DNA of 64,000 nucleotides, from assembly GCF_016863435.1 (NCBI RefSeq), contig NZ_BOOW01000011.1, positions 1-64,000 of the forward strand. Reading direction: 5' to 3'. The stretch is from Sinosporangium siamense. GTDB taxonomy: Bacteria > Actinomycetota > Actinomycetes > Streptosporangiales > Streptosporangiaceae. The notes under the pieces are model-generated. The model was not told the origin of the DNA and ran no database searches. It saw only the letters and a list, made by a program, of their open reading frames with translations. Positions 6,269-30,040 of the stretch are shown here, piece after piece (the first letter of the stretch is position 1; each line of letters opens with the position of its first letter). The position numbers were made by a program, and so were the translations under genes.

Positions 6269-8833
<2,565 letters not shown>

Positions 8834-14338: not shown

Positions 14339-15568
14339 TCAGAAGATCAGACCCGCCCAGGGCTTGACGTCCCACGACATCGCCGTCGACAGGGCGCGCA
14401 GGGCGCCTTCCCGGGTCTCCGCGGCGGCTCCGGTCGCGTTCCAGGCGTGCAGGGACGTGCCGCCGAGGTAGGCCGCGCCGAGGGCGTTCACGGGCAGTGT
14501 GACGTCGGCGGGGGCGCGGGTCGGCTCGCAGGTGGCGCCGGTGGTGTCGGCCGACAGCCGCCAGGTGCCGGTGTTCCAGGGGCACACCGGGTCGTCGATG
14601 CCGATCGCGACGTCCACGGGGGCGGCGTAGGCGCGTTCCGTGAGCGCGCGGCGCACGTCCGCCAACCTGATCCACAGGTCGTCGACGGCGACCGCCCGCA
14701 GGCGGCGCGGGTCGTTGAACAGGAGCCGGATCGGGTCGTCGGCGGGACGGGTGGGGACCTTGAACGTCGCGATCAGGTCGCGGTCGAGCACGCCGCGCCA
14801 CACGGCGGCATAAGCGGCGGGGTCGGTCGCGTGCAGGTCGTAGAGGTGGAGTTCGCCTTCGAAGATGTCATGTACGGAGAACCCCTCCTTGGCGCGGAAC
14901 AGGGCGTAGCCCCGGGGGCCCGTGTCGTCCTCGGCCACAAGGCCCCGCAGCGGGCCCATGCCGTGCCGGGCCTGCTCGTCGTCGGCGAGGACACCGTCCC
15001 AGCGGGGCGTGCTTCTGGCGTACATGCCGGGGCGCGTGACACGCACCGCCTCGAAGACCTTCTCGAACACGTTCCTGGCCCCGTCGGGGTTCACGATGCG
15101 GAGCCGGAGCGCGGGGTCGGACGGCGCGTGGGGGGAGAAGGCGGTGTCACGCCTGTCGATGGTGAAGGCGACCCCCTCGGCTGCCAGACCGTAGCCATAC
15201 CTGCCGTAGATCGAGGATTCCGAGGCGTAGAGGGCCGCGACGGCCTCTCCGCGTTCGGCCAGATCGGTCAGCTGGCGCCGCATGAGCGACGAGAGCACGC
15301 CGCGCCTGCGGTGTGAGCTGAGCACGCCGACAGCGGTGACGCCCGCCACGGCGGTGGTGCCGCCGGGTACGGCCATGTCGAACTCGAAGGTTCCCGTGCC
15401 GCCGATCAAAGTCTCGCCGTCGAAAGCGGCGAGCGTGCGTTCGAAGTCAAACAATCGCTTGAAGCGTTCGTTCCTCTCCGGAGACGAGTACGTGTTGTAC
15501 GCGTCCATGAGGACCTCGAGGAAAGCCGGCCAGTCGGACGGGGTCATGGGGCGGATCGGATAGCTCAT
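14339..15568 (-). CDS. eis: Eis-family GNAT N-acetyltransferase
   Basis: A 409-residue acetyltransferase of the Eis type: an N-terminal GNAT domain, a second degenerate GNAT domain and a C-terminal sterol-carrier-like domain. The acetyl-CoA site reads AVGVLSSHRRRGVLSSLM (residues 79-96), and SIYGRYGYGLA holds the conserved Tyr121 proposed as the acid. The last residue is Phe, as in Mycobacterium tuberculosis Eis, where the terminal carboxylate is the general base. Family members acetylate aminoglycosides at several positions or protein lysines; the substrate here is unknown. ATG 15568 fits family starts (MSYPIRPMTPSDWPAF). It is divergent from the phosphatase gene. Confidence 0.88.
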   Translation of the reverse strand: MSYPIRPMTPSDWPAFLEVLMDAYNTYSSPERNERFKRLFDFERTLAAFDGETLIGGTGTFEFDMAVPGGTTAVAGVTAVGVLSSHRRRGVLSSLMRRQLTDLAERGEAVAALYASESSIYGRYGYGLAAEGVAFTIDRRDTAFSPHAPSDPALRLRIVNPDGARNVFEKVFEAVRVTRPGMYARSTPRWDGVLADDEQARHGMGPLRGLVAEDDTGPRGYALFRAKEGFSVHDIFEGELHLYDLHATDPAAYAAVWRGVLDRDLIATFKVPTRPADDPIRLLFNDPRRLRAVAVDDLWIRLADVRRALTERAYAAPVDVAIGIDDPVCPWNTGTWRLSADTTGATCEPTRAPADVTLPVNALGAAYLGGTSLHAWNATGAAAETREGALRALSTAMSWDVKPWAGLIF

Positions 15569-15687
15569 TTGCTTTACCGTATGAGGGGGCAAAGGGGTCT
15601 GGCCACCCAATATCCCTGTTTAATGATCAAGGCGTTGGTCAAGTGGGCTGCCCAGACAGGGGATAGACCGATACAGTCAGGCGCATC

Positions 15688-16803
15688 ATGAGTTCCCGTC
15701 CGGTGCCGCTCCTCCCTCCGCGGCTCCGTGCGTTCTTGGTGCGAGTGCCGTTCTTGGTGCGCATCGTGCGTTTCTTACGGAGGGGACCGCTGGCCCGCGA
15801 CCGAAACCTGCTGATCACACTCATCGCTCTCACCTTGCTGATCGGTGTCCTCGCCGCCAAGGTGTCGATGCAGTGGGCCTCGCCGTCCCTGCTGGTCCCG
15901 CTCACCCTGGTCGGCGGCTTGCAGCTGCGCCTGCGCAGCCTCAGCAAACTGCTGTGCGCCGAGTTCGCCTCGCTCGCCTACATCGCCGTCGAGCGCGGCG
16001 TCGGCGAGGTCGGGCCGGGGATGCTCGCCACCGTGCTCTTCACGTCGGTGCTCGCCGTAATGATGTCCCGCACCCGGGGCCAGCTCGGCATGCAGGGCCT
16101 GCGGGGCGACGCCATGCTGCTCGAACTACGCGATCGGCTGCGCAACCAGAGCGAGTTGCCCGCGCTCCCCAAGGAGTGGGGGCACAAGGTCGTGCTCAAG
16201 CAGGCGGGCGGTTCGTCCTTCGGCGGTGACTTCGTCGTGTCGATGCGCGAGGGCGACCAGGTCGAGGTGGCGGTGGTCGACGTGTCGGGCAAAGGGGTAG
16301 ACGCCGGCACCAGAGCGCTTCTGCTGTCAGGCACCTTCGGCGGCCTGCTCGGCTCGGTCGACGACTTCCTGCCCGCCTGCAACACCTACCTGCACAGGCA
16401 GCGGGAGGGGGAGGGCTTCGTCACGGCCGTCCACCTGCGGCTGAACCTCGCGTCGGGGGAGTATGTGATCACCTCGGCCGGGCATCCGCCGGTGGTGAAG
16501 TTCGACGCGGGCAGCGGCGGGTGGCAGGTGGCGACGGCCAAGGGCGTGGTGCTCGGCGTAGTGCCCGATCTGCACTGCGAGCCGGACCGGGGCGTGCTGC
16601 ACAAAGGGGACGCCCTGCTCCTCTACACCGACGGGCTGATCGAACAGCCCGGGCGGGACATCGACGCGGGCCTCGACAAGCTGCTGGGCGAGGCGGAGCG
16701 GCTGCTGCCTTCGGGGTTCGCCGGGGGAGCGAGAGCATTGGTGAACGCCATGTCCTCGGGTCACAACGACGACTGCGCACTCGTGCTCATCTGGCGGCCC
16801 TGA
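15688..16803 (+). CDS. Membrane-anchored PP2C/SpoIIE-type Ser/Thr phosphatase
   Basis: A 371-residue protein with an Arg-rich N-terminus, several hydrophobic segments within residues 35-130 (LLITLIALTLLIGVLAAKV, LLVPLTLVGGLQLRL, MLATVLFTSVLAVMM), and a C-terminal phosphatase domain. Metal-binding signatures are visible: GGDFVVSMREGDQVEVAVVD (first Asp), DVSGKGVDAGTRALLL, SAGHPPVVKF, LLLYTDGLIE and HNDDCALVLIW. Such proteins dephosphorylate anti-anti-sigma factors in stress and development circuits; no partner gene is nearby, so the target is unknown. The start is ATG 15688. Confidence 0.9.
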   Translation: MSSRPVPLLPPRLRAFLVRVPFLVRIVRFLRRGPLARDRNLLITLIALTLLIGVLAAKVSMQWASPSLLVPLTLVGGLQLRLRSLSKLLCAEFASLAYIAVERGVGEVGPGMLATVLFTSVLAVMMSRTRGQLGMQGLRGDAMLLELRDRLRNQSELPALPKEWGHKVVLKQAGGSSFGGDFVVSMREGDQVEVAVVDVSGKGVDAGTRALLLSGTFGGLLGSVDDFLPACNTYLHRQREGEGFVTAVHLRLNLASGEYVITSAGHPPVVKFDAGSGGWQVATAKGVVLGVVPDLHCEPDRGVLHKGDALLLYTDGLIEQPGRDIDAGLDKLLGEAERLLPSGFAGGARALVNAMSSGHNDDCALVLIWRP

Positions 16804-17243
16804 GGCTCCCCAGCCCCTGTTCAAGTTTTCAGAACGGCTAGGCCGGCGATCTCACACGCCTGGAACCTGACGCCGGCACTGGCGACGTGCATCGGACCGT
16901 TCGTGCCGGAGTGTGGGAGCGTGCCGGGTTGGTTGAGTCACGTTCCACATCCCCGCCTGGGGTGGCAGAACACTCCACAACGTCATTCGTGCTCTCCCAA
17001 TGAGCGCCGCAATGAGGGAAAACATGTATTTTTAGTAGGTTTTATGGGATTGCTCAAGAATGGGGGACGACGCAGATCACACGTGGAATACGTGACAGAT
17101 TAAATGGTTGGGGCTGGAAGCCTTTCATGTCCCATTCATGGAGAAGGTCACTGGCGATGGTGGGGGTGGCCTGACATTCTCGAATGCAGCTAGCCCGACG
17201 AATCCTGATGATTTAGGACACGAGCGGAAGGAGGCGAAATTCG
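16804..17243 (+). promoter_or_regulatory. Upstream region of the lanthipeptide locus
   Basis: 440 nt without a convincing gene. From about 16990 to 17120 it is markedly richer in A and T than its surroundings, with runs such as TATTTTTAGTAGGTTTTATG, as expected for a regulated promoter region. A GGAAGGAGG ribosome site lies just upstream of GTG 17244. In ram/amf-type loci the dedicated LuxR-type regulator binds here; a specific operator could not be identified by eye. Confidence 0.5.
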
Positions 17244-19862
17244 GTGGATAAGCGTTACGAACTTTACTGCCTCGTCGACCCGCTCTTCTATGACTCCCCG
17301 ATGGCGCGACCGGAACGGGACGCTCCCGGGGAGGGGCCGGCCAGGAGCCTGGCCTTCGGCGCCGCCGGGCGTGAGGTCCCGGACGGCTGGGCCCGCTCCG
17401 AGAAGGACGACTGGGTGGTCGTGCGCTGCCTGGACCAAGTGCTTCCCGAGCAGGGCTGGAAGGTGCACGTGTCCGCGTGTCTCGACAATGCGGACGGGGT
17501 CCTGGACTTGGTCTGGGACTACTGCACGCGAGAGAATGTCACGTTCAAGTTCTTGCGCGGCCGGCACCTCCTCCACATGCGAAATGCGAAATATGCGGAT
17601 CGCGGGTCGAGTGGGAAGCTCGTCACGATTTATCCCACCGATGATGCGGCGCTGGAGAAAATCCTCGCCGACCTTTCCGAGCTTTTGCCCGACACGGCTG
17701 GGCCGTACATCTTGAGCGATCTGCGCATCGGCGCAGGACCGCTCTATGTGAGATACGGCGCGTTCAGCGAGCGCTACTGCGTCTCGCCGCAGGGAACGAT
17801 CGAACCCGCCATCGCAGCCCCCGACGGCACGCTGGTGCCCGACCGCCGCGACCCGGTGTTCAAGATGCCCTCGTGGGTGACGCCGCCGGGGTTCCTGCAG
17901 CCGCACCTGGCCGCTCGCGCGGCGACGACCATGGCCGACCTCCCCTACACGATCGAGAAGGTCCTGCACTTCTCCAACGGCGGCGGCGTCTACCTGGCCG
18001 TCGACCGGCGCTCGGGGGAGAAGGTCGTGCTCAAGGAGGCCAGGCCGTACGCCGGGCTGGACTACATGGGGCAGGACGCGGTCGCCCGGCTGGAACGCGA
18101 ACGTGAGGTGCTCGAACGACTAAGCGGCCTCGACGTGGTGCCGAGGCTCTTTGCGACCTTCGACGTGGGCGAGCACAGGTTCCTCGCCATGGAGTTCGTC
18201 GAGGGGCAGCCGCTCAACAGGATCTTCACCGAGCGCTACCCGCTCGGCGGGCAGCACTCCGAGCGGGAGAAGGCGGAGTACGTCCCCTGGGCGACGGGCA
18301 TCTGCGCCAAGGTGGAACAGGCCGTCCGCCTCATCCACGAACGCGGCCTCGTCTTCGGCGACGTCCACCTCAGCAACATCATCGTCCGCCCCGACGGCGG
18401 CGTCACGCTCATCGACTTCGAAATGGCCACGCCGATCGGCGAAGCCGGCCGTATGGGCCTCGCCAACCCCGGCTTCGCGGCCCCCGCCGGCTTCACCGGT
18501 GTGGACATCGACAACTACGCGCTGGCCTGCTTACGCCTGGCGCTCTTCCTCCCGCTGACCGAGCTGTTCATGCTGGAGCGGGGCAAGGCCGCCGAACTGG
18601 CCGAGGCGGTCCGAACCCACTTCTCACTCCCCGCGGGCTTCCTGCGGGAGGCCGTCGAGGCCATCTCGCCTCCGGCGGAACCCCGGCGGGCGGCATGGGT
18701 CGCCGCGGAGCCGGGCCCAGCACGGTGGCCCGCAATACGCGACACGATGACCGAGGCGATCCTCGCCTCGGCTACCCCGGAACGCGACGACCGTCTCTTC
18801 CCCGGCGATATCGGGCAGTTCTCTACCGGAGGATTGAATCTGGCCTTCGGCGCCGCCGGTGTGCTCTATGCCCTGAACGCCACCGGTGCCGGGCGGTTCC
18901 CCGACCACGAGGAATGGCTCGTGCGGCGGGCGCTCAACCCCGCGGAGGGGAACCGTCTCGGCTTCTACGAGGGCCTCCACGGTGTGGCCTACGCGCTGGC
19001 CGAACTCGGCCGGCCCGACGAGGCGCTGGAACTCGTCGAGATCGTGTCGCGCGAACGCTGGGAGACCCTCGGCTCCGACCTGTTCGGCGGCCTCGCCGGC
19101 ATCGGGCTCAACCTCGCCCACCTCGCCGACCGCACCGGCGAGAACGACCTGCTCACCTCCGCGCTGAAGGCGGCCGATGTGGTCGCCTCCCGGCTCGGCG
19201 GCCCCGACGACGTACCCACGATCAGCGGAGAAGGAGGACTGCACGCCGGGCTCATGAACGGCTCCAGCGGGCCGGCGCTCCTCTTCATCCGCCTCTATGA
19301 GCGCACAGGCGACACCGGCCTCCTCGACCTGGCCGACGTCGCCCTGCGGCAGGACCTGCGCAGATGCACAGTGCAGAGCGATGGATCGCTTCAGGTCAAT
19401 GAGGGGTGGCGCACCATGCCATACCTCGACCGGGGCAGCGTGGGCATCGCCTGGGTCCTGCGGGAATACCTGCGTCACCGCCCCGGCGGAGATGTGGAGA
19501 AAGGGCTCGCGGCCCTTGACCGGGCCGCTCGCTCACCTTTCTATATCCAGTCCGGACTGCTCACCGGTCGTGCGGGGGTGCTGGCCTACTTGGCGGCGCA
19601 CCCGGACGCGAGCGGCCCGGACGGGACAGTGCTCGACGCCCAACTGGGTGCCATGGGCTGGCACGCGATGCCGTACAAGGGCCACACGGCCTTTCCCGGC
19701 GAGCGGTTGCTGCGCCTGTCCATGGATCTGGCCACCGGTACCGCCGGCGTGCTGCTGGCGGTCGGGGCGGCGATCGGCGAAACGGCTCCCCTGCCGTTCC
19801 TCGCCGCGTCACGACCGGCAGCGCATCTCGCGGACAACGGCAAAACACACATGGAGGTCTAA
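17244..19862 (+). CDS. lanKC: Class III lanthionine synthetase (LanKC)
   Basis: An 872-residue trifunctional enzyme that phosphorylates Ser residues of the precursor, eliminates phosphate and cyclises the dehydro residues with Cys. Residues about 1-210 are the lyase domain (MDKRYELYCLVDPLFYDSPM, WKVHVSACLDNAD, RDPVFKMPSW). The kinase domain has Lys264 (VVLKEARP), the catalytic loop GDVHLSN (Asp373, Asn378) and DFE (Asp391). The C-terminal LanC-like domain (about 510-872) keeps helical repeats such as YEGLHGVAYALAELG but shows none of the Cys-Cys-His zinc ligands, which separates class III from class IV. It starts at GTG 17244 behind GGAAGGAGG and is followed after 4 nt by the precursor gene. 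Confidence 0.95.
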   Translation: MDKRYELYCLVDPLFYDSPMARPERDAPGEGPARSLAFGAAGREVPDGWARSEKDDWVVVRCLDQVLPEQGWKVHVSACLDNADGVLDLVWDYCTRENVTFKFLRGRHLLHMRNAKYADRGSSGKLVTIYPTDDAALEKILADLSELLPDTAGPYILSDLRIGAGPLYVRYGAFSERYCVSPQGTIEPAIAAPDGTLVPDRRDPVFKMPSWVTPPGFLQPHLAARAATTMADLPYTIEKVLHFSNGGGVYLAVDRRSGEKVVLKEARPYAGLDYMGQDAVARLEREREVLERLSGLDVVPRLFATFDVGEHRFLAMEFVEGQPLNRIFTERYPLGGQHSEREKAEYVPWATGICAKVEQAVRLIHERGLVFGDVHLSNIIVRPDGGVTLIDFEMATPIGEAGRMGLANPGFAAPAGFTGVDIDNYALACLRLALFLPLTELFMLERGKAAELAEAVRTHFSLPAGFLREAVEAISPPAEPRRAAWVAAEPGPARWPAIRDTMTEAILASATPERDDRLFPGDIGQFSTGGLNLAFGAAGVLYALNATGAGRFPDHEEWLVRRALNPAEGNRLGFYEGLHGVAYALAELGRPDEALELVEIVSRERWETLGSDLFGGLAGIGLNLAHLADRTGENDLLTSALKAADVVASRLGGPDDVPTISGEGGLHAGLMNGSSGPALLFIRLYERTGDTGLLDLADVALRQDLRRCTVQSDGSLQVNEGWRTMPYLDRGSVGIAWVLREYLRHRPGGDVEKGLAALDRAARSPFYIQSGLLTGRAGVLAYLAAHPDASGPDGTVLDAQLGAMGWHAMPYKGHTAFPGERLLRLSMDLATGTAGVLLAVGAAIGETAPLPFLAASRPAAHLADNGKTHMEV

Positions 19863-19866
19863 GAAA

Positions 19867-19983
19867 ATGGCTCTTCTCGACCTGCAGGGCATGGAGAACG
19901 AGACCCCGGGCGGCGGCCCCCGTAGCACCGCCAGCCGTCACTGCGGCGGCGGCGCGAGCTGGCTGAGCCTGCTCCTCTGCTAA
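19867..19983 (+). CDS. lanA: Class III lanthipeptide precursor (SapB/AmfS-like), 38 aa
   Basis: The gene begins 4 nt after the synthetase stop. Residues 1-9 (MALLDLQGM) carry the leader box LLDLQ that class III synthetases recognise. A leader rich in Glu, Thr and Gly follows to about residue 17. The core has two Ser-x2-Ser-x(n)-Cys motifs: Ser20-x2-Ser23-x2-Cys26 and Ser31-x2-Ser34-x3-Cys38, joined by GGGA. This predicts two labionin or lanthionine rings, the second ending the peptide. SapB and AmfS use three residues in both motifs, so the first ring here would be one residue smaller. Thr21 and the Trp-Leu pair in ring two are also distinctive. The leader cleavage site and the maturation protease are not evident. 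Confidence 0.93.
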   Translation: MALLDLQGMENETPGGGPRSTASRHCGGGASWLSLLLC

Positions 19984-19998
19984 TCACGAATGTCTGAG

Positions 19999-20041
19999 AC
20001 CGGATTCCGGGGGAGCGGCGCGGTGTCCCCCGGAGTCCGGT
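19999..20041 (+). terminator. Strong hairpin between precursor and exporter genes
   Basis: Arms of 16 nt (19999-20014 and 20026-20041) pair fully except for one G-U wobble, around an 11-nt loop, starting 16 nt after the precursor stop. Its position suits partial termination or 3'-end protection of the precursor message, giving far more precursor than exporter. Confidence 0.8.
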
Positions 20042-20078
20042 TCTCGTCGTATGTCCGGCAGTCGAAGGGGGAGGAAGC

Positions 20079-21893
20079 GTGCGCGCCGCAGACCGACTAC
20101 TGGCCGGACTCATCCGCGGCACGAGCGGCTGGACAACCCTGCTGGCCGTCTCCTCCCTGATCACCGCCGGCGCCGAACTCGCTCTGCCCCTGGCCCTCGG
20201 CGCGGCACTCGACAATGCGCTCGACCCGCAGGCCGGATCAACCGGCTTCGTGCTCTGCGCGCTGCTTGTCGGCCTCGCCGTCATCGGGGAGGTGTTGTCC
20301 GACCTCGGGGCCGGTGTCACCCGCGTCAATGTGATCGCGAGCGTACGGCACCGCCTGATCGGCCACATCCTCGGCGCCGGGCCCGCCGTCCCCCGCCGTT
20401 TCGGAACCGGTGACCTGGTCGCCCGGGCCACCGGCGGCGCCGACGAGACCGGCCACGCGCCGCCCGCCGTCGTCCTAGGAGTCGCCGGGCTGATCCCCGC
20501 GCTCGGGAGCATGGTGCTGCTCTTCCTCATCGACTACCGGCTCGGCCTGACGTTCCTCATCGGGAGCGCCTGCTCGGTCCTGCTGCTGCGGGCCTTCGTC
20601 AAGGACGCCTCCGAGCTCGTCACCGCCTACCAGCGAGTCCAGGGCGGCATCGCCGCGCGCCTGCTCGAAGCACTCGCCGGCGCCCGCACCATCGCCGCCG
20701 CCCGCACCGGGAAACGGGAATGCGCCCGGGTGCTCGCTCCCCTGCCCGAGCTTCGCGCCCATGGAGACGGCATGTGGCGGGTCCAGCGCGGCATCTCCGT
20801 CAAGACCGCCGTCTCCGGGCCGCTCACCGAGATCGCCGTCATCGCCGTCGCGGGCATCTGCCTCACGTGGGGCGACGTCAGTGCCGGCGACGTGGTGGCC
20901 GCGAGCCGCTATGCCGCACTCGGCGGCGGGATCGGCGGCGTCCTCAGCTATCTCAACCGCCTCGCCCGGGCGCGAGGCGCCGCCGTACGCATCGCCGAGG
21001 TGCTAGGTGAGCCTCTCGTCGAGTACGGCTCGCGCCTCCTGCCCGAGGCCCCGGCGCGGGCCGGCACCCTGGAGTTCAAGGACGTCGCCGCGGCCGGAGT
21101 GCTGCACAAGGTGAACATGACCGTGCCCGGAGGGCTAACCGTCGCCCTCGTCGGCTCCGGCGCCGAGGTGTCGCTCGCCGCCGCCCTCGCCGGGCGGCTC
21201 GCCGACCCCGACGCCGGTGAGATCACCCTCGACGGGGTGCCGCTGCCCGCTCTCGGCCGGGAGGCCCTGCGCCGCGCGGTCGGATATGCCTTCGAACGGC
21301 CCGCCCTGCTCGGCGGCACCCTGCGCGACGCCATCGCCCTGCGCCCCGACGGCATGCCGCTCGCGGACGAGGACATGCGGGCCGCCGCCCGGGCCGCTTG
21401 CGCGGAACCCTTCATCCTGCGCCTGCCCCAGCAATATGACACCGAGGCGGCAGAGGCCCCCATGTCGGGCGGCGAGGCGCAGCGACTCGGCCTCGCCCGC
21501 GCCTTCGCCCACCCCGGACGGCTCCTCGTCTTCGACGACGCCACCTCAAGCCTGGACACCGTCACCGAACTCCAGGTGAGCCAGGCGATCGTCGGCGAAC
21601 TCGGCGGGCGCACCCGCCTCATCGTCGCCCACCGGGCCGCCACCGCGGCCCGCGCCGACCTCGTCGTCTGGCTCCACGAGGGGAGGGCGCGCGCCAGTGG
21701 TCCGCACGAGCGCTTATGGCGGGATCCGGACTATCGCGCCGTCTTCGCGGCGGGCCCGTCGTCCCCTTCTCCGGACGAGGCTTCTGCGGACGAGGCTCTT
21801 CCGGACGAGGCTTTTGCGGACGGTGGGGCAGAGGCCTCGCCCCGGCGGGTTGCCCTGCACGCCGGCGTGGCGGAGACGGGTGAGGGCCGATGA
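20079..21893 (+). CDS. Lanthipeptide ABC exporter half-transporter A (degenerate ATP site)
   Basis: A 604-residue fusion of a six-helix transmembrane domain and an ABC domain, second to last in the locus order synthetase-precursor-exporter A-exporter B (as in ramA/ramB). The Walker A loop reads VGSGAEVSL (about 358-366) and lacks the essential Lys. The signature MSGGE (462-466) is intact. Walker B ends in Asp-Asp (486-487), with Asp in place of the catalytic Glu; the H-loop His (IVAHR) is kept. This pattern marks the partner of a heterodimer that contributes the signature to the one working site. The tail carries a DEA-rich repeat (SSPSPDEASADEALPDEAFA). It starts at GTG 20079 behind GGGGGAGGAAG and overlaps the next gene by 4 nt. 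Confidence 0.92.
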   Translation: MRAADRLLAGLIRGTSGWTTLLAVSSLITAGAELALPLALGAALDNALDPQAGSTGFVLCALLVGLAVIGEVLSDLGAGVTRVNVIASVRHRLIGHILGAGPAVPRRFGTGDLVARATGGADETGHAPPAVVLGVAGLIPALGSMVLLFLIDYRLGLTFLIGSACSVLLLRAFVKDASELVTAYQRVQGGIAARLLEALAGARTIAAARTGKRECARVLAPLPELRAHGDGMWRVQRGISVKTAVSGPLTEIAVIAVAGICLTWGDVSAGDVVAASRYAALGGGIGGVLSYLNRLARARGAAVRIAEVLGEPLVEYGSRLLPEAPARAGTLEFKDVAAAGVLHKVNMTVPGGLTVALVGSGAEVSLAAALAGRLADPDAGEITLDGVPLPALGREALRRAVGYAFERPALLGGTLRDAIALRPDGMPLADEDMRAAARAACAEPFILRLPQQYDTEAAEAPMSGGEAQRLGLARAFAHPGRLLVFDDATSSLDTVTELQVSQAIVGELGGRTRLIVAHRAATAARADLVVWLHEGRARASGPHERLWRDPDYRAVFAAGPSSPSPDEASADEALPDEAFADGGAEASPRRVALHAGVAETGEGR

Positions 21894-23770
21894 GCGGCGG
21901 CGGCGGGGCCACGCGTCTCCTGCGTTTCTCCTATCGGACCGGGCGCTCGCATTACCTCGCCATCCTCTTCTGGTCGGTGGTGGAGGCCGCGCCCGTATTC
22001 GTTTCCGGGCTAGCCGTGGCCCGCGCCCTGGACCAGGGATTTCTCGTCGGGAAGCCACTGACGGGCCTCTCCTGGCTCGGCGTGTTCGCGCTGGCCGCCG
22101 GACTCGGGGCCGTGGGGCTCGGCCAGATCGTGCCGCGGCTCGGAGCCGTCGCCGAACCCCTCCGCGACGCGCTCGTGCGCAAGGTCGTCGAGGCGACCGT
22201 CCACCGGGCCTGTGAAGCCTGGGGCAGACCCGTGGACTCGGCGGTCGTGGCCCGCCTCACCCAGCAGGTGGAGCTGGTCCGCGACTCCTTCGCCGGGCTG
22301 ATCATGGTGGTCAGGGACTTCGCCTTCACCACCGTCGCCGTCGTCGCCGGCCTGCTCACCCTGCTGCCGATGTCGGCCCCCCTGATCATCGGCCCCGTGG
22401 TGATCTCGGTGGCGCTGTTCGCCAGGCTCATGCTCAGCCTCGCCGAACGGCAGCGCGACCTCGTCCTCGCCGACGAGCACGTGGCCGCCGAGGTCGGCAC
22501 CGTCGTCGCCGGCGTGCGCGACGTGGTCGCCGCCGGAGCCGAGGCGACCGCCGCCGCACGCGCGGGTCGGGCCGTGGACGACCAGGCACACGCGGCGCGA
22601 GGCGTCGCCGTACTCACTTCCGCCGGCACCCTCTGCATGGCGGTGGGGGGCTGGCTGCCGGTGGTGCTGCTGCTGCTCGCCTTCCGCGACCTCTTCGCCG
22701 CCGGCGCCACCACCGGCGAGGTGCTCGGCACAATGATCTTCGTGCTGTACGGCGTGCAGCCCGCACTCCGCGGCCTCGTCGTGGGCCTGGGCGGCACCGG
22801 CCTGCGGCTGGCGGTCACCGCGGCGCGCCTTCTCGACACGACGGATACGCCCGGCACACCACCACTTTCGTCCGGTGGGCGTGACCTTGATGTCTGGGAT
22901 GCGGGAACCAGGGCGGAGGCGCCCCGCACGCGTCGGCGGGACGCGGATGAGGGCGCCTCGGCGGAGAACTCCGATCCGCCTCCCCCGTCCAGCGGGCGGG
23001 ACCCGGACGGGAGAGGCACGGCGGTGGACTCCGACACGTCCCCCTCGCGCGGTGGGCAGGACCTGGTTGAGGGAGCCGGCGTGGTGGTCAGCGGGGTGAC
23101 CTTCGCCTACGGAGCGGAGGCCGAACCCGTGCTCGACGGTCTCGACCTCCACATTCCAGGCGGCGACCACCTCGCCGTCGTCGGACCCAGCGGGATCGGC
23201 AAATCCACCCTGGCCGCGCTCATCGCGGGTGTGCTCACCCCCGGCGCCGGGCGGATCACCGTGGCCGGGCGGCCGATCGCCGGACACGACCCCGCCGCCT
23301 TCACGGAGTGGCGCGTGCTGATCCCCCAGGAGGCATACGTCTTCACCGGGACCCTCGCCGACAACCTCCGCTACCTGCGTCCGGCGGCGACCCCGGAGAT
23401 GATGGAGAGGTCGGCCCATGCCGTGGGGCTCGACCTGCCCCACGGCCTGTCCGAGCCGCTCGTCCCCGGCGATCTGAGCGCCGGGCGGCGGCAACTGGTC
23501 GCCCTCGCCCGGGCCCATCTCTCGGCGGCGCGTCTCGTGATCCTGGACGAGGCCACCTGCCACCTCGACGCGGCCGCCGAGGCACGGGCCGAGGAGGCCA
23601 TGGCGGCGCGCCCCGGCACGCTGATCGTCATCGCCCACCGGATGAGCTCGGCGCTGCGGGCCGGGCGTGTGCTCGTCCTGGACGGCACGTCGGCCGCGGT
23701 CGGCTCCCACACCGACCTGCTCGCCTCCTCCCCGCTCTATCGCGACCTGGCGGGCCGCTGGCGGGGATAG
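21890..23770 (+). CDS. Lanthipeptide ABC exporter half-transporter B
   Basis: A 626-residue half-transporter, translationally coupled to exporter A through an ATGA overlap. Its transmembrane domain is followed by an unusual polar linker of roughly 85 residues (about 318-400) with loose repeats of the kind SSGGRDLD, SSGRDPDG, RGGQDL. The ABC domain has an intact Walker A GPSGIGKST (Lys438), Walker B with Glu554 (ILDEATCHLD) and H-loop IAHR, but its signature is LSAGR (529-533) rather than LSGGQ. Together with partner A this leaves one complete ATP site. Probable role: export of the mature or leader-bearing lanthipeptide. Confidence 0.92.
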   Translation: MSGGGGATRLLRFSYRTGRSHYLAILFWSVVEAAPVFVSGLAVARALDQGFLVGKPLTGLSWLGVFALAAGLGAVGLGQIVPRLGAVAEPLRDALVRKVVEATVHRACEAWGRPVDSAVVARLTQQVELVRDSFAGLIMVVRDFAFTTVAVVAGLLTLLPMSAPLIIGPVVISVALFARLMLSLAERQRDLVLADEHVAAEVGTVVAGVRDVVAAGAEATAAARAGRAVDDQAHAARGVAVLTSAGTLCMAVGGWLPVVLLLLAFRDLFAAGATTGEVLGTMIFVLYGVQPALRGLVVGLGGTGLRLAVTAARLLDTTDTPGTPPLSSGGRDLDVWDAGTRAEAPRTRRRDADEGASAENSDPPPPSSGRDPDGRGTAVDSDTSPSRGGQDLVEGAGVVVSGVTFAYGAEAEPVLDGLDLHIPGGDHLAVVGPSGIGKSTLAALIAGVLTPGAGRITVAGRPIAGHDPAAFTEWRVLIPQEAYVFTGTLADNLRYLRPAATPEMMERSAHAVGLDLPHGLSEPLVPGDLSAGRRQLVALARAHLSAARLVILDEATCHLDAAAEARAEEAMAARPGTLIVIAHRMSSALRAGRVLVLDGTSAAVGSHTDLLASSPLYRDLAGRWRG

Positions 23771-23794
23771 GCGGCTGCGACGCGGGCCCGAGCC

Positions 23795-24084
23795 CCGGCA
23801 CGGGGGCCGGTGGGGCCCCCGGCACGCGTGCCGGCGGATCCCGCTGGGGGCAGGGCCTTGAGCCCTGACTCGGCATGCGTGCGGGCGGATCCTCCTGGTG
23901 CGGTCAGGGCCCTGAGCCCTGCCCCGGCACGCGTGCCGGCGGATGCTGCCGATGCGGTCAAGGCCCTGAGCCCTGCCCCGGCACGCGTGCCGGCGGATGC
24001 TGTCGATGCGGTCAAGGCCCTGAGCCCTGCCCCGGCATGCGTGCGGGCGGATCCCGCCGACGCGGTCAGGGCCCGCCCGCGTCG
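23795..24084. repeat. 54-bp tandem repeat, about 4.5 copies, each with a 12-bp palindrome
   Basis: Between the convergent exporter B and regulator genes a 54-bp unit is repeated. Copies start near 23820 (51 bp), 23872, 23926, 23980 and 24034 (partial), with a poorer partial copy before the first. The two central copies differ at a single base. Each begins with the self-complementary GGCACGCGTGCC or the variant GGCATGCGTGCG and ends with a GGGCCCTGAGCCCTG-like inverted stretch. The period is a multiple of three, so long frames run through it, but they are shadows; no gene is supported. Confidence 0.85.
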
Positions 24085-24690
24085 TCAGATCCAGCCCGCG
24101 TCCGAGGCGATGCGGAGCGCGTCGACGCGGTTGCGCGCGCCTGTCTTGCACATGATGCGGGACAGGTGGTTGCGCACCGTGCCGACCGACAGGAACAGCT
24201 CCTCGGCGATCTCTCCCGAGCTGGCCCCTTGGGCGGCGATGCGCAGGACGTCGACCTCACGCCGGGTCAGCGGGTTGTCCGCCGACTCAAGGGCCGCGAC
24301 GGCCAGATCGGTGTCGACGGCCCGGCGACCGGCGGCCACCCTGCGCACGCCCTCGGCGAGCTGCTCAGGGGCGATCTCGAGGCTCATGAACCCGAGTGCG
24401 GGTGTGGTGAAGGCGCGGCGGACCTGCCCCGGGTTGGGCTGGGCGGACAGGATGAGCACACGGCAGGTCGGGACCTTGTCGTGAAGGAGCACCGCCGCGC
24501 TGAGCCCGTCGACGCCGGGGAGGTCGAGGTCGATCACCGCGGCGTCGGGCTCGTGCGTCAGCGCCGCCGGCACGATGTCCTCCGCGCTGCCGACCACCGC
24601 CACCACCGCTATGTCGGGCTCACTCTCCAGGGAGGAGACCAGTCCCCGCTGAACTAGCGGTAGATGCTCGGCAACCAGGATGCGGATCAA
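24085..24690 (-). CDS. LuxR-family response regulator of the lanthipeptide locus (RamR/AmfR-like)
   Basis: A 201-residue NarL-type regulator with a receiver domain (1-120) and a C-terminal LuxR helix-turn-helix (NPLTRREVDVLRIAAQGASS through EELFLSVGTVRNHLSRI). The presumed phospho-acceptor Asp54 and Ser82 are present, but the N-terminal acidic pair is Glu8-His9 and the conserved Lys at position 104 is Leu (GFMSLE where GYLLKD is usual). The receiver may therefore not follow normal phosphorylation switching. No histidine kinase is adjacent. Convergent placement next to the exporters matches ram/amf organisation, so it is likely the activator of the locus; this is inference. Confidence 0.88.
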   Translation of the reverse strand: MIRILVAEHLPLVQRGLVSSLESEPDIAVVAVVGSAEDIVPAALTHEPDAAVIDLDLPGVDGLSAAVLLHDKVPTCRVLILSAQPNPGQVRRAFTTPALGFMSLEIAPEQLAEGVRRVAAGRRAVDTDLAVAALESADNPLTRREVDVLRIAAQGASSGEIAEELFLSVGTVRNHLSRIMCKTGARNRVDALRIASDAGWI

Positions 24691-24893: not shown

Positions 24894-26192
24894 ATGAGCT
24901 GGCTCTTTGTGGCAGGAATAGCCATCTTCCTCATCGGACTGATGCTTTCCATTGCGCTGCACGAGATCGGCCACCTGGTCCCGGCCAAGCTATTCGGTGT
25001 AAAAGTGACGCAGTTCATGGTGGGCTTCGGTCCCACGATGTGGTCACGCCGAAAAGGGGAGACCGAATTCGGCATTAAGTGGATCCCCTTTGGGGGCTAC
25101 GTCCGCATGATCGGCATGCTTCCGCCCAGGTCAAGCGACGATCCCGCCAAACTGCGCAAGGTTTCCACCGGGCCGTGGCAGAGTATGATCGACACAGCCC
25201 GAGAAGTCGCCCTGGAAGACGTAAAACCGGGCGACGAGGACCGTGTCTTCTACCGCAAAGCATGGTGGCAGAAGGTCATCATCATGTCCGGTGGGCCGGC
25301 AATGAACTTCGTGCTGGCTTTTGTGCTTTTCGCCATCGTTTTGATGGGTTACGGGGTCCAAGTGACCCAGCCCGTGATCAACGAGGTTTCCCGCTGCGTC
25401 ATCCCCGCCAGCGCCCAGGCACGCGAATGCACCGCCACCGACCCCCTCACCCCGGCCGCCTCCGCGGGCCTGCGCCCCGGTGACCGCATCGTCACCTTCG
25501 AGGGCCGGAAGATCGACTCCTGGGACGGTGTCGCCCGCGCCATCCGCGCCCACGGAGCCGGGCCAGCAGTGGTCGGCATCCAGCGCGACGGCCGCGCCAT
25601 GGACGTCAACGTCAACCTGATCGCCCAGGAGCGCCGCTCCCTGGACGACCCCGACAAGCTCGAGGTCGTCGGCTTCCTCGGCTTCACCCCCGTGACGTCG
25701 CTCGAGCAGCAGAGCGTCGGCGCCGTCGCCACCCACATGTGGGACCTCACCGCCCGCACCGCCCAGTCGATCGTGCGCCTGCCCGAAAAGATGGTCGGCG
25801 TCTGGGAGGCCGCCTTCTCCGGTGAGGAGCGCGACAAGAACGGCCCCATCGGCATCATCGGCGCGGGCCGCATCGGCGGCGAGATCGCCTCCGCCCCCGT
25901 GCCCCTTGAGGCCAGAGTCGTGTCGTTGGTCACACTGCTGGCCGGGTTCAACCTGGCGGTCGGCCTGTTCAACCTGATCCCGCTCCTGCCGCTGGACGGC
26001 GGCCACGTCGCGGGCGCCCTCTGGGAAGGCCTCAAGCGTGCCTTCGCCCGCGTCACGCGCCGCCCCAGCCCCGGCCACGTGGACATCGCCAAGGCGCTCC
26101 CGCTGACCTACGCGATGGCCTTCCTCATGATCATCATGGCCGGGCTGCTGATGTACGCCGACCTGGTCAACCCCGTCAGACTGTTCGACTGA
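24894..26192 (+). CDS. rseP: RIP metalloprotease, site-2 protease family (Rip1/RseP)
   Basis: A 432-residue intramembrane zinc protease that cleaves membrane anti-sigma factors or similar substrates within the bilayer. The first helix holds HEIGH (IALHEIGHLVPAKLFGV, His23/Glu24/His27 region). GGYVRMIGM and GGPAMNFVLAFVLFAIVLMG mark the conserved core, a PDZ domain follows (AGLRPGDRIVTFEGRKIDSW), and NLIPLLPLDGGHV contains the third ligand. The usual actinobacterial neighbours dxr and ispG are absent here. ATG 24894 is preceded only weakly by a ribosome site. It is followed after 16 nt by a MarR gene, probably co-transcribed. It lies beside the lanthipeptide locus but nothing shows a role in leader removal. 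Confidence 0.93.
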   Translation: MSWLFVAGIAIFLIGLMLSIALHEIGHLVPAKLFGVKVTQFMVGFGPTMWSRRKGETEFGIKWIPFGGYVRMIGMLPPRSSDDPAKLRKVSTGPWQSMIDTAREVALEDVKPGDEDRVFYRKAWWQKVIIMSGGPAMNFVLAFVLFAIVLMGYGVQVTQPVINEVSRCVIPASAQARECTATDPLTPAASAGLRPGDRIVTFEGRKIDSWDGVARAIRAHGAGPAVVGIQRDGRAMDVNVNLIAQERRSLDDPDKLEVVGFLGFTPVTSLEQQSVGAVATHMWDLTARTAQSIVRLPEKMVGVWEAAFSGEERDKNGPIGIIGAGRIGGEIASAPVPLEARVVSLVTLLAGFNLAVGLFNLIPLLPLDGGHVAGALWEGLKRAFARVTRRPSPGHVDIAKALPLTYAMAFLMIIMAGLLMYADLVNPVRLFD

Positions 26193-28558: not shown

Positions 28559-29161
28559 GTGCCCGAGATTATCCTTGCTTCAGCCTCTCCCGCCCGCCTG
28601 GTCCTGCTACGACAAGCGGGACTCGATCCCAAGGTGGTCGTCAGCGGCGTGGACGAGGACGCCTTCACCGCCCCCACCCCTGCCGACCTCAGCCTGGTCC
28701 TCGCCCGCGCCAAGGCCCACGCCGTAGCCGCCGACCTGACCGAATCCCTGGTGATCGGCTGCGACTCGATCCTCGAACTCGACGGCCTGCCGTACGGCAA
28801 GCCCGCGACAGCCGAGGAGGCCATCCGGCGCTGGCACGACATGCGCGGCAGAACCGGCAACCTGCTCACGGGGCATTGCCTGATCGACACGTCCACCGGC
28901 CGCGAGGCCACCACGGTCTGCTCCACCGAGGTACGGTTCGGCCACCCGAGTGACGCGGAAATCGCCGCGTATGTGGCAACCGGCGAACCCCTCCGCGTGG
29001 CCGGCGGATTCACCCTCAACGGCCACGGCGGCTGGTTCGTCGACGGCATTGTGGGCGATCAGGGGAATGTACTGGGGATCTCGCTTCCGGCGTTGCGCCG
29101 GTTGTTCAGCGAACTGGGCGTGGAGGTGACCCGGCTCTGGTCCCCGGGGGGCGGCCTCTGA
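28559..29161 (+). CDS. maf: Maf-family nucleotide pyrophosphatase
   Basis: A 200-residue house-cleaning enzyme that hydrolyses non-canonical or excess nucleoside triphosphates. Family signatures are [18 protein letters not shown] at the N-terminus, the catalytic region [14 protein letters not shown], and [19 protein letters not shown]. The C-terminal part [21 protein letters not shown] and [19 protein letters not shown] is also typical. The start is GTG 28559. Its last third is copied twice in tandem downstream, but the gene itself looks full length. Confidence 0.93.
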
Positions 29162-29510
29162 GCGGAACTTGGGGATCCGGGGTGTGGTCTCTGGCCGGCA
29201 TCCGGTTTCGCCTGCTTGTGATCAAGGGAATGTGCTGGCGATCTCGGTTCCGGCGTTGCGCCGGTTGTTCAGCAAGCTGGGGGTGGAGGTGACCCGGCTC
29301 TGGTCCCCGGGGGGCGGCCTCTGACCGGCACTTGGGGATCCGGGGTGTGGTCTCCGACCGGCATCCGGTTCGCCTGCTTGTGATCGACGAGGCAATGTGC
29401 TGGGGATCACGCTTTCTCGCGGCACTCCTAGGGTGAAACGGTTCGTCCTGGCGAGTTGCGTGTCGCACCGGTTGTTCGGTGACCTTGGGAGTTTAGGTGA
29501 CCCCGATCAT
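29162..29510 (+). repeat. Tandem copies of the 3' end of maf
   Basis: A segment starting at GATC 29057 inside maf recurs from 29220 (163 bp on) and again from 29382 (162 bp on). The second copy repeats the maf end through its GGCCTC-TGA stop and the trailing sequence almost base for base. The third is interrupted after about 40 nt and resumes as a degenerate copy near 29457. None has a start, so these are non-coding remnants. Confidence 0.88.
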
Positions 29511-29591
29511 CGGGGTCTCCAATCGGTAGGCGGCTCCGCCTGAGCTTCGGTCAAGCTGCCGAGGCCCTTGAGAAGGGTGATCGGACGCGCC

Positions 29592-30040
29592 GGTCAGCAC
29601 TTTCCGCCAGATGTTGTCACTCGGCACGCTGCTATCCACGGCTGAGCAGGTCGCCGTTGTGAAGCCATGGGAAGTACGGTGGCCGCGCCGAATTTGGCCG
29701 CCTTCTTCGGCGGTGAGGCCGGCAACGTGATCAGGAGCACGGTCGGATGCGAGGCCGTAGGCGCGGAAGTGTGGTCGGAGGCGCCGGTCAGCACCTCCTG
29801 CCTGCCGTCGTCGCGCGGTACGCATATCCACCGTTGAGCAGGTCGCCGCTGCGAACTTCTGGGGGAGCACGGTGGCCGCGCCGGACTCGGTCGCTCGCTT
29901 CGACGGTGAGGCATGCAACGTGATCGGGAGCACAGTGGGATGTCAGGCCGGAAGCGCGGGCGGGAGCACAGTCGGATGCGAGGCCGCAAGCGCAGTCGGA
30001 CGTGTGATCAGAGGCGTGGCATGGCAGGTGACGTTTCCGG
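29592..30040. repeat. Degenerate 194-bp direct repeat
   Basis: A unit beginning GGTCAGCAC at 29592 recurs at 29786 and runs through matched blocks (ATCCACxGxTGAGCAGGTCGCC, GGTGGCCGCGCCG, CGGTGAGGC, CAACGTGATC). The tail GGGAGCACAGTCGGATG-CGAGGCC is itself repeated two or three times near 29926-29993. No gene is supported between maf and 30100. Confidence 0.7.

Follow-up and report, generated by a model that had tools for sequence, protein, structure and literature searches.

A class III lanthipeptide operon of the ramCSAB type, intact and probably in working order judging by its genes, occupies positions 17244-24690 of the stretch analysed here, namely the first 64,000 nucleotides of contig NZ_BOOW01000011.1 of Sinosporangium siamense (Streptosporangiaceae; assembly GCF_016863435.1), which we call the window. 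A first-pass annotation, made from the sequence alone, had proposed a complete ram/amf-type locus at this place, and all its components are indeed present: a LanKC synthetase, a 38-residue precursor, two ABC exporters and a regulator. The ramCSABR order that it gave is right as far as the positions of the five genes go, but the regulator is encoded on the minus strand and is convergent with the operon. That the operon is genuine and not a chance assembly is shown by the match of the precursor to the Pfam RamS model (E 5.6e-12) and by S. album (NZ_FNCN01000003.1, locus L033), which displays complete synteny from the SpoIIE gene upstream through the M50 gene downstream and encodes a 79% identical precursor in the same place. 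The peptide adds a new member, with a recurrent cationic ring type, to an already known lanthipeptide class. The more surprising part is what the sequences suggest of the history of the chromosomal site: the operon looks like the intact form of a locus of which sister lineages keep only a LanKC, in most cases kinase-degenerate, or nothing.

The synthetase gene (17244..19862, plus strand) encodes an 872-residue protein of the RamC type, which scores 1082 bits against the class III model NF038151 (cut-off 575) and 395 bits against the class IV model NF038150 (cut-off 650). Its lyase, kinase and cyclase domains are all recovered over cut-off, by PF25816 (RamC_N, 268 bits), PF00069 and PF05147 respectively. 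The kinase motifs KEARP, GDVHLSNI and DFE retain the Lys as well as the catalytic Asp, the Asn following it and the metal-binding Asp, residues whose roles are those of kinases in general. The segment spanning residues 430-872 contains a single cysteine, C708, and would therefore lack a Cys-rich zinc site, as is the case in class III; cyclases of this class without Cys-rich zinc ligands are described in the available part of PMC10604976. Solved structures of class III relatives of this protein exist in the PDB. Upstream of the gene lies an intergenic region (16804..17243, plus strand), the presumed promoter region, where conservation in S. album is patchy and covers about the last 150 bp.

The precursor gene (19867..19983, plus strand) is preceded by a GGAGG, presumably its ribosome-binding site, within the end of the LanKC gene (19853..19857, plus strand), and encodes the peptide MALLDLQGMENETPGGGPRSTASRHCGGGASWLSLLLC with the leader motif LLDLQ. 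It is over the cut-off of both the Pfam RamS model (PF19402, 46.4 against 24.3 bits) and the NCBIfam SapB/AmfS model (NF033212, 37.1 against 25 bits), and is hence detectable by current annotation pipelines. The earlier remark that it is too short for most gene callers thus fails for present-day models, but agrees with a 2020 survey which, in its available part, reports 55% of class III precursors as unannotated (PMC7268733). The core reads S20-T-A-S23-R-H-C26-GGGA-S31-W-L-S34-L-L-L-C38. As had been noted, it has two motifs of unequal spacing, S-x2-S-x2-C and S-x2-S-x3-C, separated by a Gly-rich bridge and closed by a terminal Cys. Both fit the class III pattern, because the enzyme motif SxxSx{2,5}C given in the available part of PMC11251773 spans both spacings, and the presence of two such motifs downstream of an LxDLQ leader places the peptide in the RamS family. 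By this pattern S20 to C26 are predicted to form ring 1 and S31 to C38 ring 2. The four dehydrations foreseen in the first-pass annotation are the expected number and not the maximum, since the core offers five dehydratable residues, the four Ser and Thr21. Labionin and lanthionine cannot be told apart from the sequence, as the motif serves both; lanthionine is reported for SapB and AmfS and labionin for rochsin A in the available part of PMC13380574.

The loop of ring 1 is Arg-His. We took a hydrophobic ring 1 loop as our own mark of a SapB-type surfactant, on the basis of the SapB-type loci L102-L104, whose loop is the hydrophobic three-residue LLL; that of the window is polar, cationic and two residues long, and so the peptide is not filed under that type. 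It may still work like a SapB-type surfactant, but the polar cationic ring makes a plain role of this kind less certain, and surface activity, signalling and antibiosis cannot be separated from sequence.

Downstream of the precursor gene lie the two exporter genes, both on the plus strand. The RamA-type protein (20079..21893) is over cut-off for PF00664 and PF00005, with Val in place of the Walker A Lys, whereas the RamB-type protein (21890..23770; PF00005, 77 bits) has an intact Walker A motif, GPSGIGKST, and a membrane domain below the cut-off of PF00664 (15.4 against 28 bits). The RamA Lys is lost in the window, S. album and Herbidospora (L110) only, that is, in 3 of the 72 loci (the window and 71 others) in which the segment is aligned, three further matches stopping short of it. 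The corresponding Lys of RamB is present in 69 of 69 rows, among which L047, L077 and L094 look like RamA cross-matches.

The first-pass annotation held the core to be unlike SapB-type cores, which stands, and its 2-then-3 spacing to be distinctive, which does not. We compared it with 197 distinct class III precursors from 172 loci, a few of which represent one place taken twice; the sample is not random, being drawn from the 80 loci nearest by LanKC, the best RamS-model and LanKC matches in the family of the window, and 40 stretches picked by genus. Under a strict rule 75 of the 80 named loci yielded a precursor; a looser rule added L066 and L072, and none was found in L050, L058 and L099. 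The spacing lies within the published motif and is not unique: the first ring is a two-residue one in 29 of the 197 precursors (3 ambiguous). A Cys end is seen in 32, Lys or Arg in the first-ring loop in 14, and all three features together in 11. The pattern SxxS[K/R]xC, which joins the charged residue to the two-residue loop, is found in 13: those of the window and S. album, one sequence common to two genomes of a single further genus of the same family (G050 and G089), and ten from Streptomyces loci. L088, the remaining case with Lys or Arg, has a three-residue loop. The comparison with collected precursors that had been called for thus shows the core type recurring in S. album, in another genus and in Streptomyces. 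The SRASK-x-C precursors of Streptomyces (for example L073, L080, L082, L093 and L095) share with it an SxxSKxC ring, a short Gly-containing bridge, an SxLSLL[LI]C ring and the terminal Cys, but their loci have a LanKC of another lineage and most have PP in the linker. What sets the type apart, as far as can be read from the sequences, is a small polar cationic ring, joined in most cases by glycines to a hydrophobic ring, rather than the spacing alone.

A phylum-wide search with a profile of the core type, which scored 19 candidates per genome and is not a census, gave matches at E 0.01 in 8 of 396 genomes: the own genome (1.5e-18), G424 of the same class (9.9e-4) and six at 0.003-0.009. Among plasmids the 38-residue precursor matched four weak records, the best at E 0.8. 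The literature gave no match for "SxxSxxC" with lanthipeptide, none for lanthionine synthetase, Nonomuraea, precursor peptide and class III combined, and none for core strings of 7 or 8 letters, the last of which says little on supplements and subscription journals. Two other arrangements were seen in the collected loci. In L188 and L189 (G224 and G262, genus g46) a single LanKC is accompanied, within 1.3 kb, by five class III precursors that differ from one another and have FVLDLQ or YVLDLQ leaders. L184 (G228) has two precursors with WECC motifs and the Cys-rich ends FTCGC and LFNCC, which resemble labyrinthopeptins.

A single origin of the cationic core type was rejected on the LanKC tree. 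The core-type label was set by the precursors, though a first quick tree had already been seen, and the 15 LanKCs concerned include L070, which has an extra Cys inside the ring and stands outside the 13 precursors above. Constraining these 15 to one clade cost 157 units of log-likelihood (approximately unbiased test, p-AU 6e-74) in a quick 45-row tree without the long branches L110 and L099. The core type therefore arose more than once, or is ancestral and was lost in between. One clade of the four Streptosporangiaceae rows was likewise rejected (p-AU 8.8e-5), because the LanKC-only genes L119 and L134 fall between them. The proteins of G050 and G089 group with those of Sinosporangium in the 45-row tree (support 81) but not in a more careful 39-row tree, which restores L110 only.

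The site itself was traced by its regulator. A search at E 1e-60 or better recovered this gene in 106 genomes, in 9 of them only at 55% identity or less, and a match of at least 65% identity is present in 97 of the 297 genomes of the family of the window; we read the 30 best-matching sites and five extra ones, 35 of the 97 in all. The genes for the SpoIIE-type phosphatase, the RamR-like regulator and the M50 protease persist at the site in these relatives. The 30 best comprise two complete loci, both of Sinosporangium (the window and S. album), four with LanKC without precursor or exporters (G059, G103, G124 and G248) and 24 empty ones, which have the SpoIIE and regulator neighbours and between them no LanKC, exporter or precursor match at E 1e-3. 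The five extra sites (G022, G076, G143, G220 and G263) were chosen through a LanKC search at E 1e-150 and raise the LanKC-only loci to nine (L147-L150 and L226-L230), a sample that consequently favours such sites. Outside this set the surroundings are distinctive: among the 80 named LanKC loci, with flanks of about 9 kb on both sides in 55 and less in the rest, only S. album has the SpoIIE and M50 genes. The upstream boundary of the site is the SpoIIE-type PP2C phosphatase (15688..16803, plus strand; PF07228, 104.5 bits), 91% identical in S. album and 75-84% at the other sites read, some of these matches being partial. The downstream boundary is a membrane metalloprotease of the M50 (RseP-type) family (24894..26192, plus strand; PF02163, 156 bits), 59-79% identical at the other sites read.

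The two Sinosporangium LanKCs and the nine LanKC-only homologues, all from the same site, form one clade in the 39-row tree (100/100), in which the nine make a clade of their own (98/95). Three of the LanKC-only genomes (G059, G248 and G263) have no match to the RamS model anywhere in the genome at E 0.01, nor do they reach the cut-off of either of two NCBI precursor models; in the remaining six the RamS model has a match on a different contig. In eight of the nine LanKC-only enzymes the catalytic Asp, the Asn after it or the metal-binding Asp, or more than one of them, is missing, G248 keeping all four residues checked, while the other 107 rows of the 118-row comparison, in which G059 and G076 are each counted twice, keep them all. 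These proteins are still under constraint in the two pairs measured by the Nei-Gojobori method: the nonsynonymous and synonymous divergences (dN and dS) are 0.091 and 0.286 for G248-G263, and 0.198 and 0.628 for G059-G076. This is close to what the LanKCs of the window and S. album show, 0.202 and 0.704, whereas G050-G089 are tighter, at 0.051 and 0.381. In G248 and G263 (L148 and L149) the LanKC C-termini read LTLLDSQGLGSETPC and LTLLDQRGLGSETPC and resemble the precursor leader LLDLQGMENETP; when the precursor was lost, the reading frame of the enzyme may thus have been extended into what remained of the leader.

These patterns are most simply explained by loss from a complete ancestor, though the empty sites would then need repeated loss of the whole operon. 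We tentatively suggest, as a proposal somewhat likelier to fail than to hold, that an ancestral Streptosporangiaceae ram operon has been outlived by its site. A LanKC kept under constraint with, in most cases, a lost kinase site may there have turned into a non-catalytic partner of the regulator or the phosphatase, and the developmental job of the regulator would be independent of the lanthipeptide of this site.

The regulator (24085..24690, minus strand) combines a receiver domain (PF00072) with a LuxR-type (GerE) helix-turn-helix (PF00196); in the Streptomyces loci L093 and L103 it is likewise convergent with the operon, and the protein of the window is 46% and 37% identical to theirs, respectively. 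A quick tree over 202 columns separates 22 site regulators (the window, S. album and L236-L255, further ones at hand being omitted) from 63 regulators of other ram loci by one branch with a Shimodaira-Hasegawa-like approximate likelihood ratio support (SH-aLRT) of 99. The 63 are the best match per locus, not all of them beside ramB (for example L067 and L108), and include long branches. By this split the regulator of the window is a RamR relative that belongs to the site. That it controls the operon is suggested by where it lies and by analogy with S. coelicolor, whose RamR protein binds upstream of ramC according to the available part of PMC5650626.

Taken together, the genes point to the following route. 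The RamR-like regulator would switch the operon on in development, and LanKC would bind the leader helix, phosphorylate Ser20, Ser23, Ser31 and Ser34 and eliminate the phosphates; two rings, of lanthionine or labionin, would then be closed between the dehydrated serines and Cys26 and Cys38. These steps are modelled on those that the available part of PMC10604976 describes for class III, with the leader helix at the kinase N-lobe, phosphorylation and elimination, and metal-independent cyclisation. Export would proceed through the half-exporters RamA and RamB, with one ATP site degenerate, and an enzyme from outside the operon, perhaps an M1 protease, would trim the leader. AplP is an M1-type leader protease, and an M1-family aminopeptidase encoded outside the operon (6269..8833, minus strand; PF01433, 193 bits; PF11838, 176 bits) is one candidate for this role; it is among four M1-family matches in the genome, which also has three of the prolyl-oligopeptidase type (S9_N). 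What results would be a peptide of some 20 residues, in which glycines link a small cationic polar ring to a hydrophobic Trp/Leu ring; with its charged head and greasy tail it would act as an amphiphile at the hyphal surface.

Several points weigh against this picture. Its ring type, cleavage site and number of dehydrations are predictions; RamA is without its Walker A lysine; and the regulator also occurs at 24 of the 30 sites viewed where there is no operon, so that its role in controlling this one is assumed. The available part of PMC13380574 reports that substituting hydrophobic residues abolishes the activity of durhapeptin, whereas ring 1 is polar here. The peptide might instead be a cationic antimicrobial or signalling lanthipeptide and no surface-active morphogen, its ram-like layout inherited and its function shifted. 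The rarity of Lys or Arg in the first-ring loop (14 of 197, 13 of them with a two-residue loop) speaks for this, as does the occurrence of the cationic loop on separate LanKC lineages, which suggests selection for a charged ring. The RamR-like regulator, the SpoIIE neighbour and the exporter pair are nevertheless those of developmental loci, and the five locus genes include no immunity-like gene, so that we give this alternative roughly one chance in a few.

A less likely view is that the operon is already failing, the loss of the RamA lysine being a first step of the decay seen in the sister lineages. The loss is shared by both Sinosporangium species, and the nine LanKC-only loci and the 24 empty sites among the 30 viewed show where such decay could lead, but the LanKC kinase residues and the RamB Walker A motif are intact, the precursor is 79% identical between the species, LanKC has diverged far less in dN than in dS, and Herbidospora, which has lost the same Walker A lysine, carries a precursor that is different and looks intact. 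Equally doubtful is an insertion of the operon at the site in Sinosporangium, with the LanKC-only loci as a separate lineage: the SpoIIE-RamR-M50 block free of ram genes at 24 of the 30 sites is what it would leave elsewhere, but the same-site LanKC-only homologues are the sister clade of the Sinosporangium LanKCs, and two of them carry the leader-like C-termini LTLLDSQGLGSETPC and LTLLDQRGLGSETPC. An intact operon of developmental type hence remains our preferred reading. Aerial growth has been linked to class III lanthipeptides of this family, the functional data that we found coming from Streptomyces and from hydrophobic peptides, and a member with a cationic ring offers a test case of greasiness against ring shape. 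The series of complete, LanKC-only and empty sites within one family likewise allows one to ask which tasks are left to the regulator and to a kinase-degenerate synthetase in the absence of the peptide.

Among known systems, the SapB locus of S. coelicolor (ramCSAB-ramR), as presented in the available part of PMC5650626, shares with the operon of the window the gene order, a RamS-family leader, a class III synthetase, the exporter pair and an adjacent regulator; the window differs from it in the Gly-rich bridge, the terminal Cys and the lost RamA Walker A motif. The ram-type locus of S. album has the same core architecture. The scanned neighbours of the LanKC in this operon include no decarboxylase, which together with an acyltransferase gene would have marked a lipolanthine cluster. 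A GNAT-domain gene with a sterol-carrier domain does lie nearby (14339-15610, minus strand), but LanKC-only sites also have it next to the SpoIIE gene. A second LanKC of the genome does have such a setting: on contig 6 (L114, 5745-10537) it is accompanied by a flavoprotein decarboxylase, a GNAT acetyltransferase and a 33-residue precursor with a GTG start and one SNNSTITC motif. This is the lipolanthine layout and probably fits sinosporapeptin of S. siamense, whose cluster (Saito et al. 2023) we presume to have this gene content. Sinosporapeptin would thus be a LanKC product probably of the same genome, but one made by a separate cluster with decarboxylase and acetyltransferase and a one-motif precursor.

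Between ramB and the regulator gene lies a tandem repeat of 54 bp in 4.8 copies (23817..24074, plus strand), which contains three perfect palindromes, CCGGCACGCGTGCCGG. This palindrome was not found in the 13 kb stretch examined in S. album (L113), allowing up to two mismatches. The genome has nine chaplin-domain matches, eight of them in one open frame of 713 codons (G000:C30:329637-330959), which fit an organism with an aerial phase. Finally, two long tandem duplications, with periods of 163 and 193 bp, are present further downstream in the window at 29057-29414 and 29572-29959.

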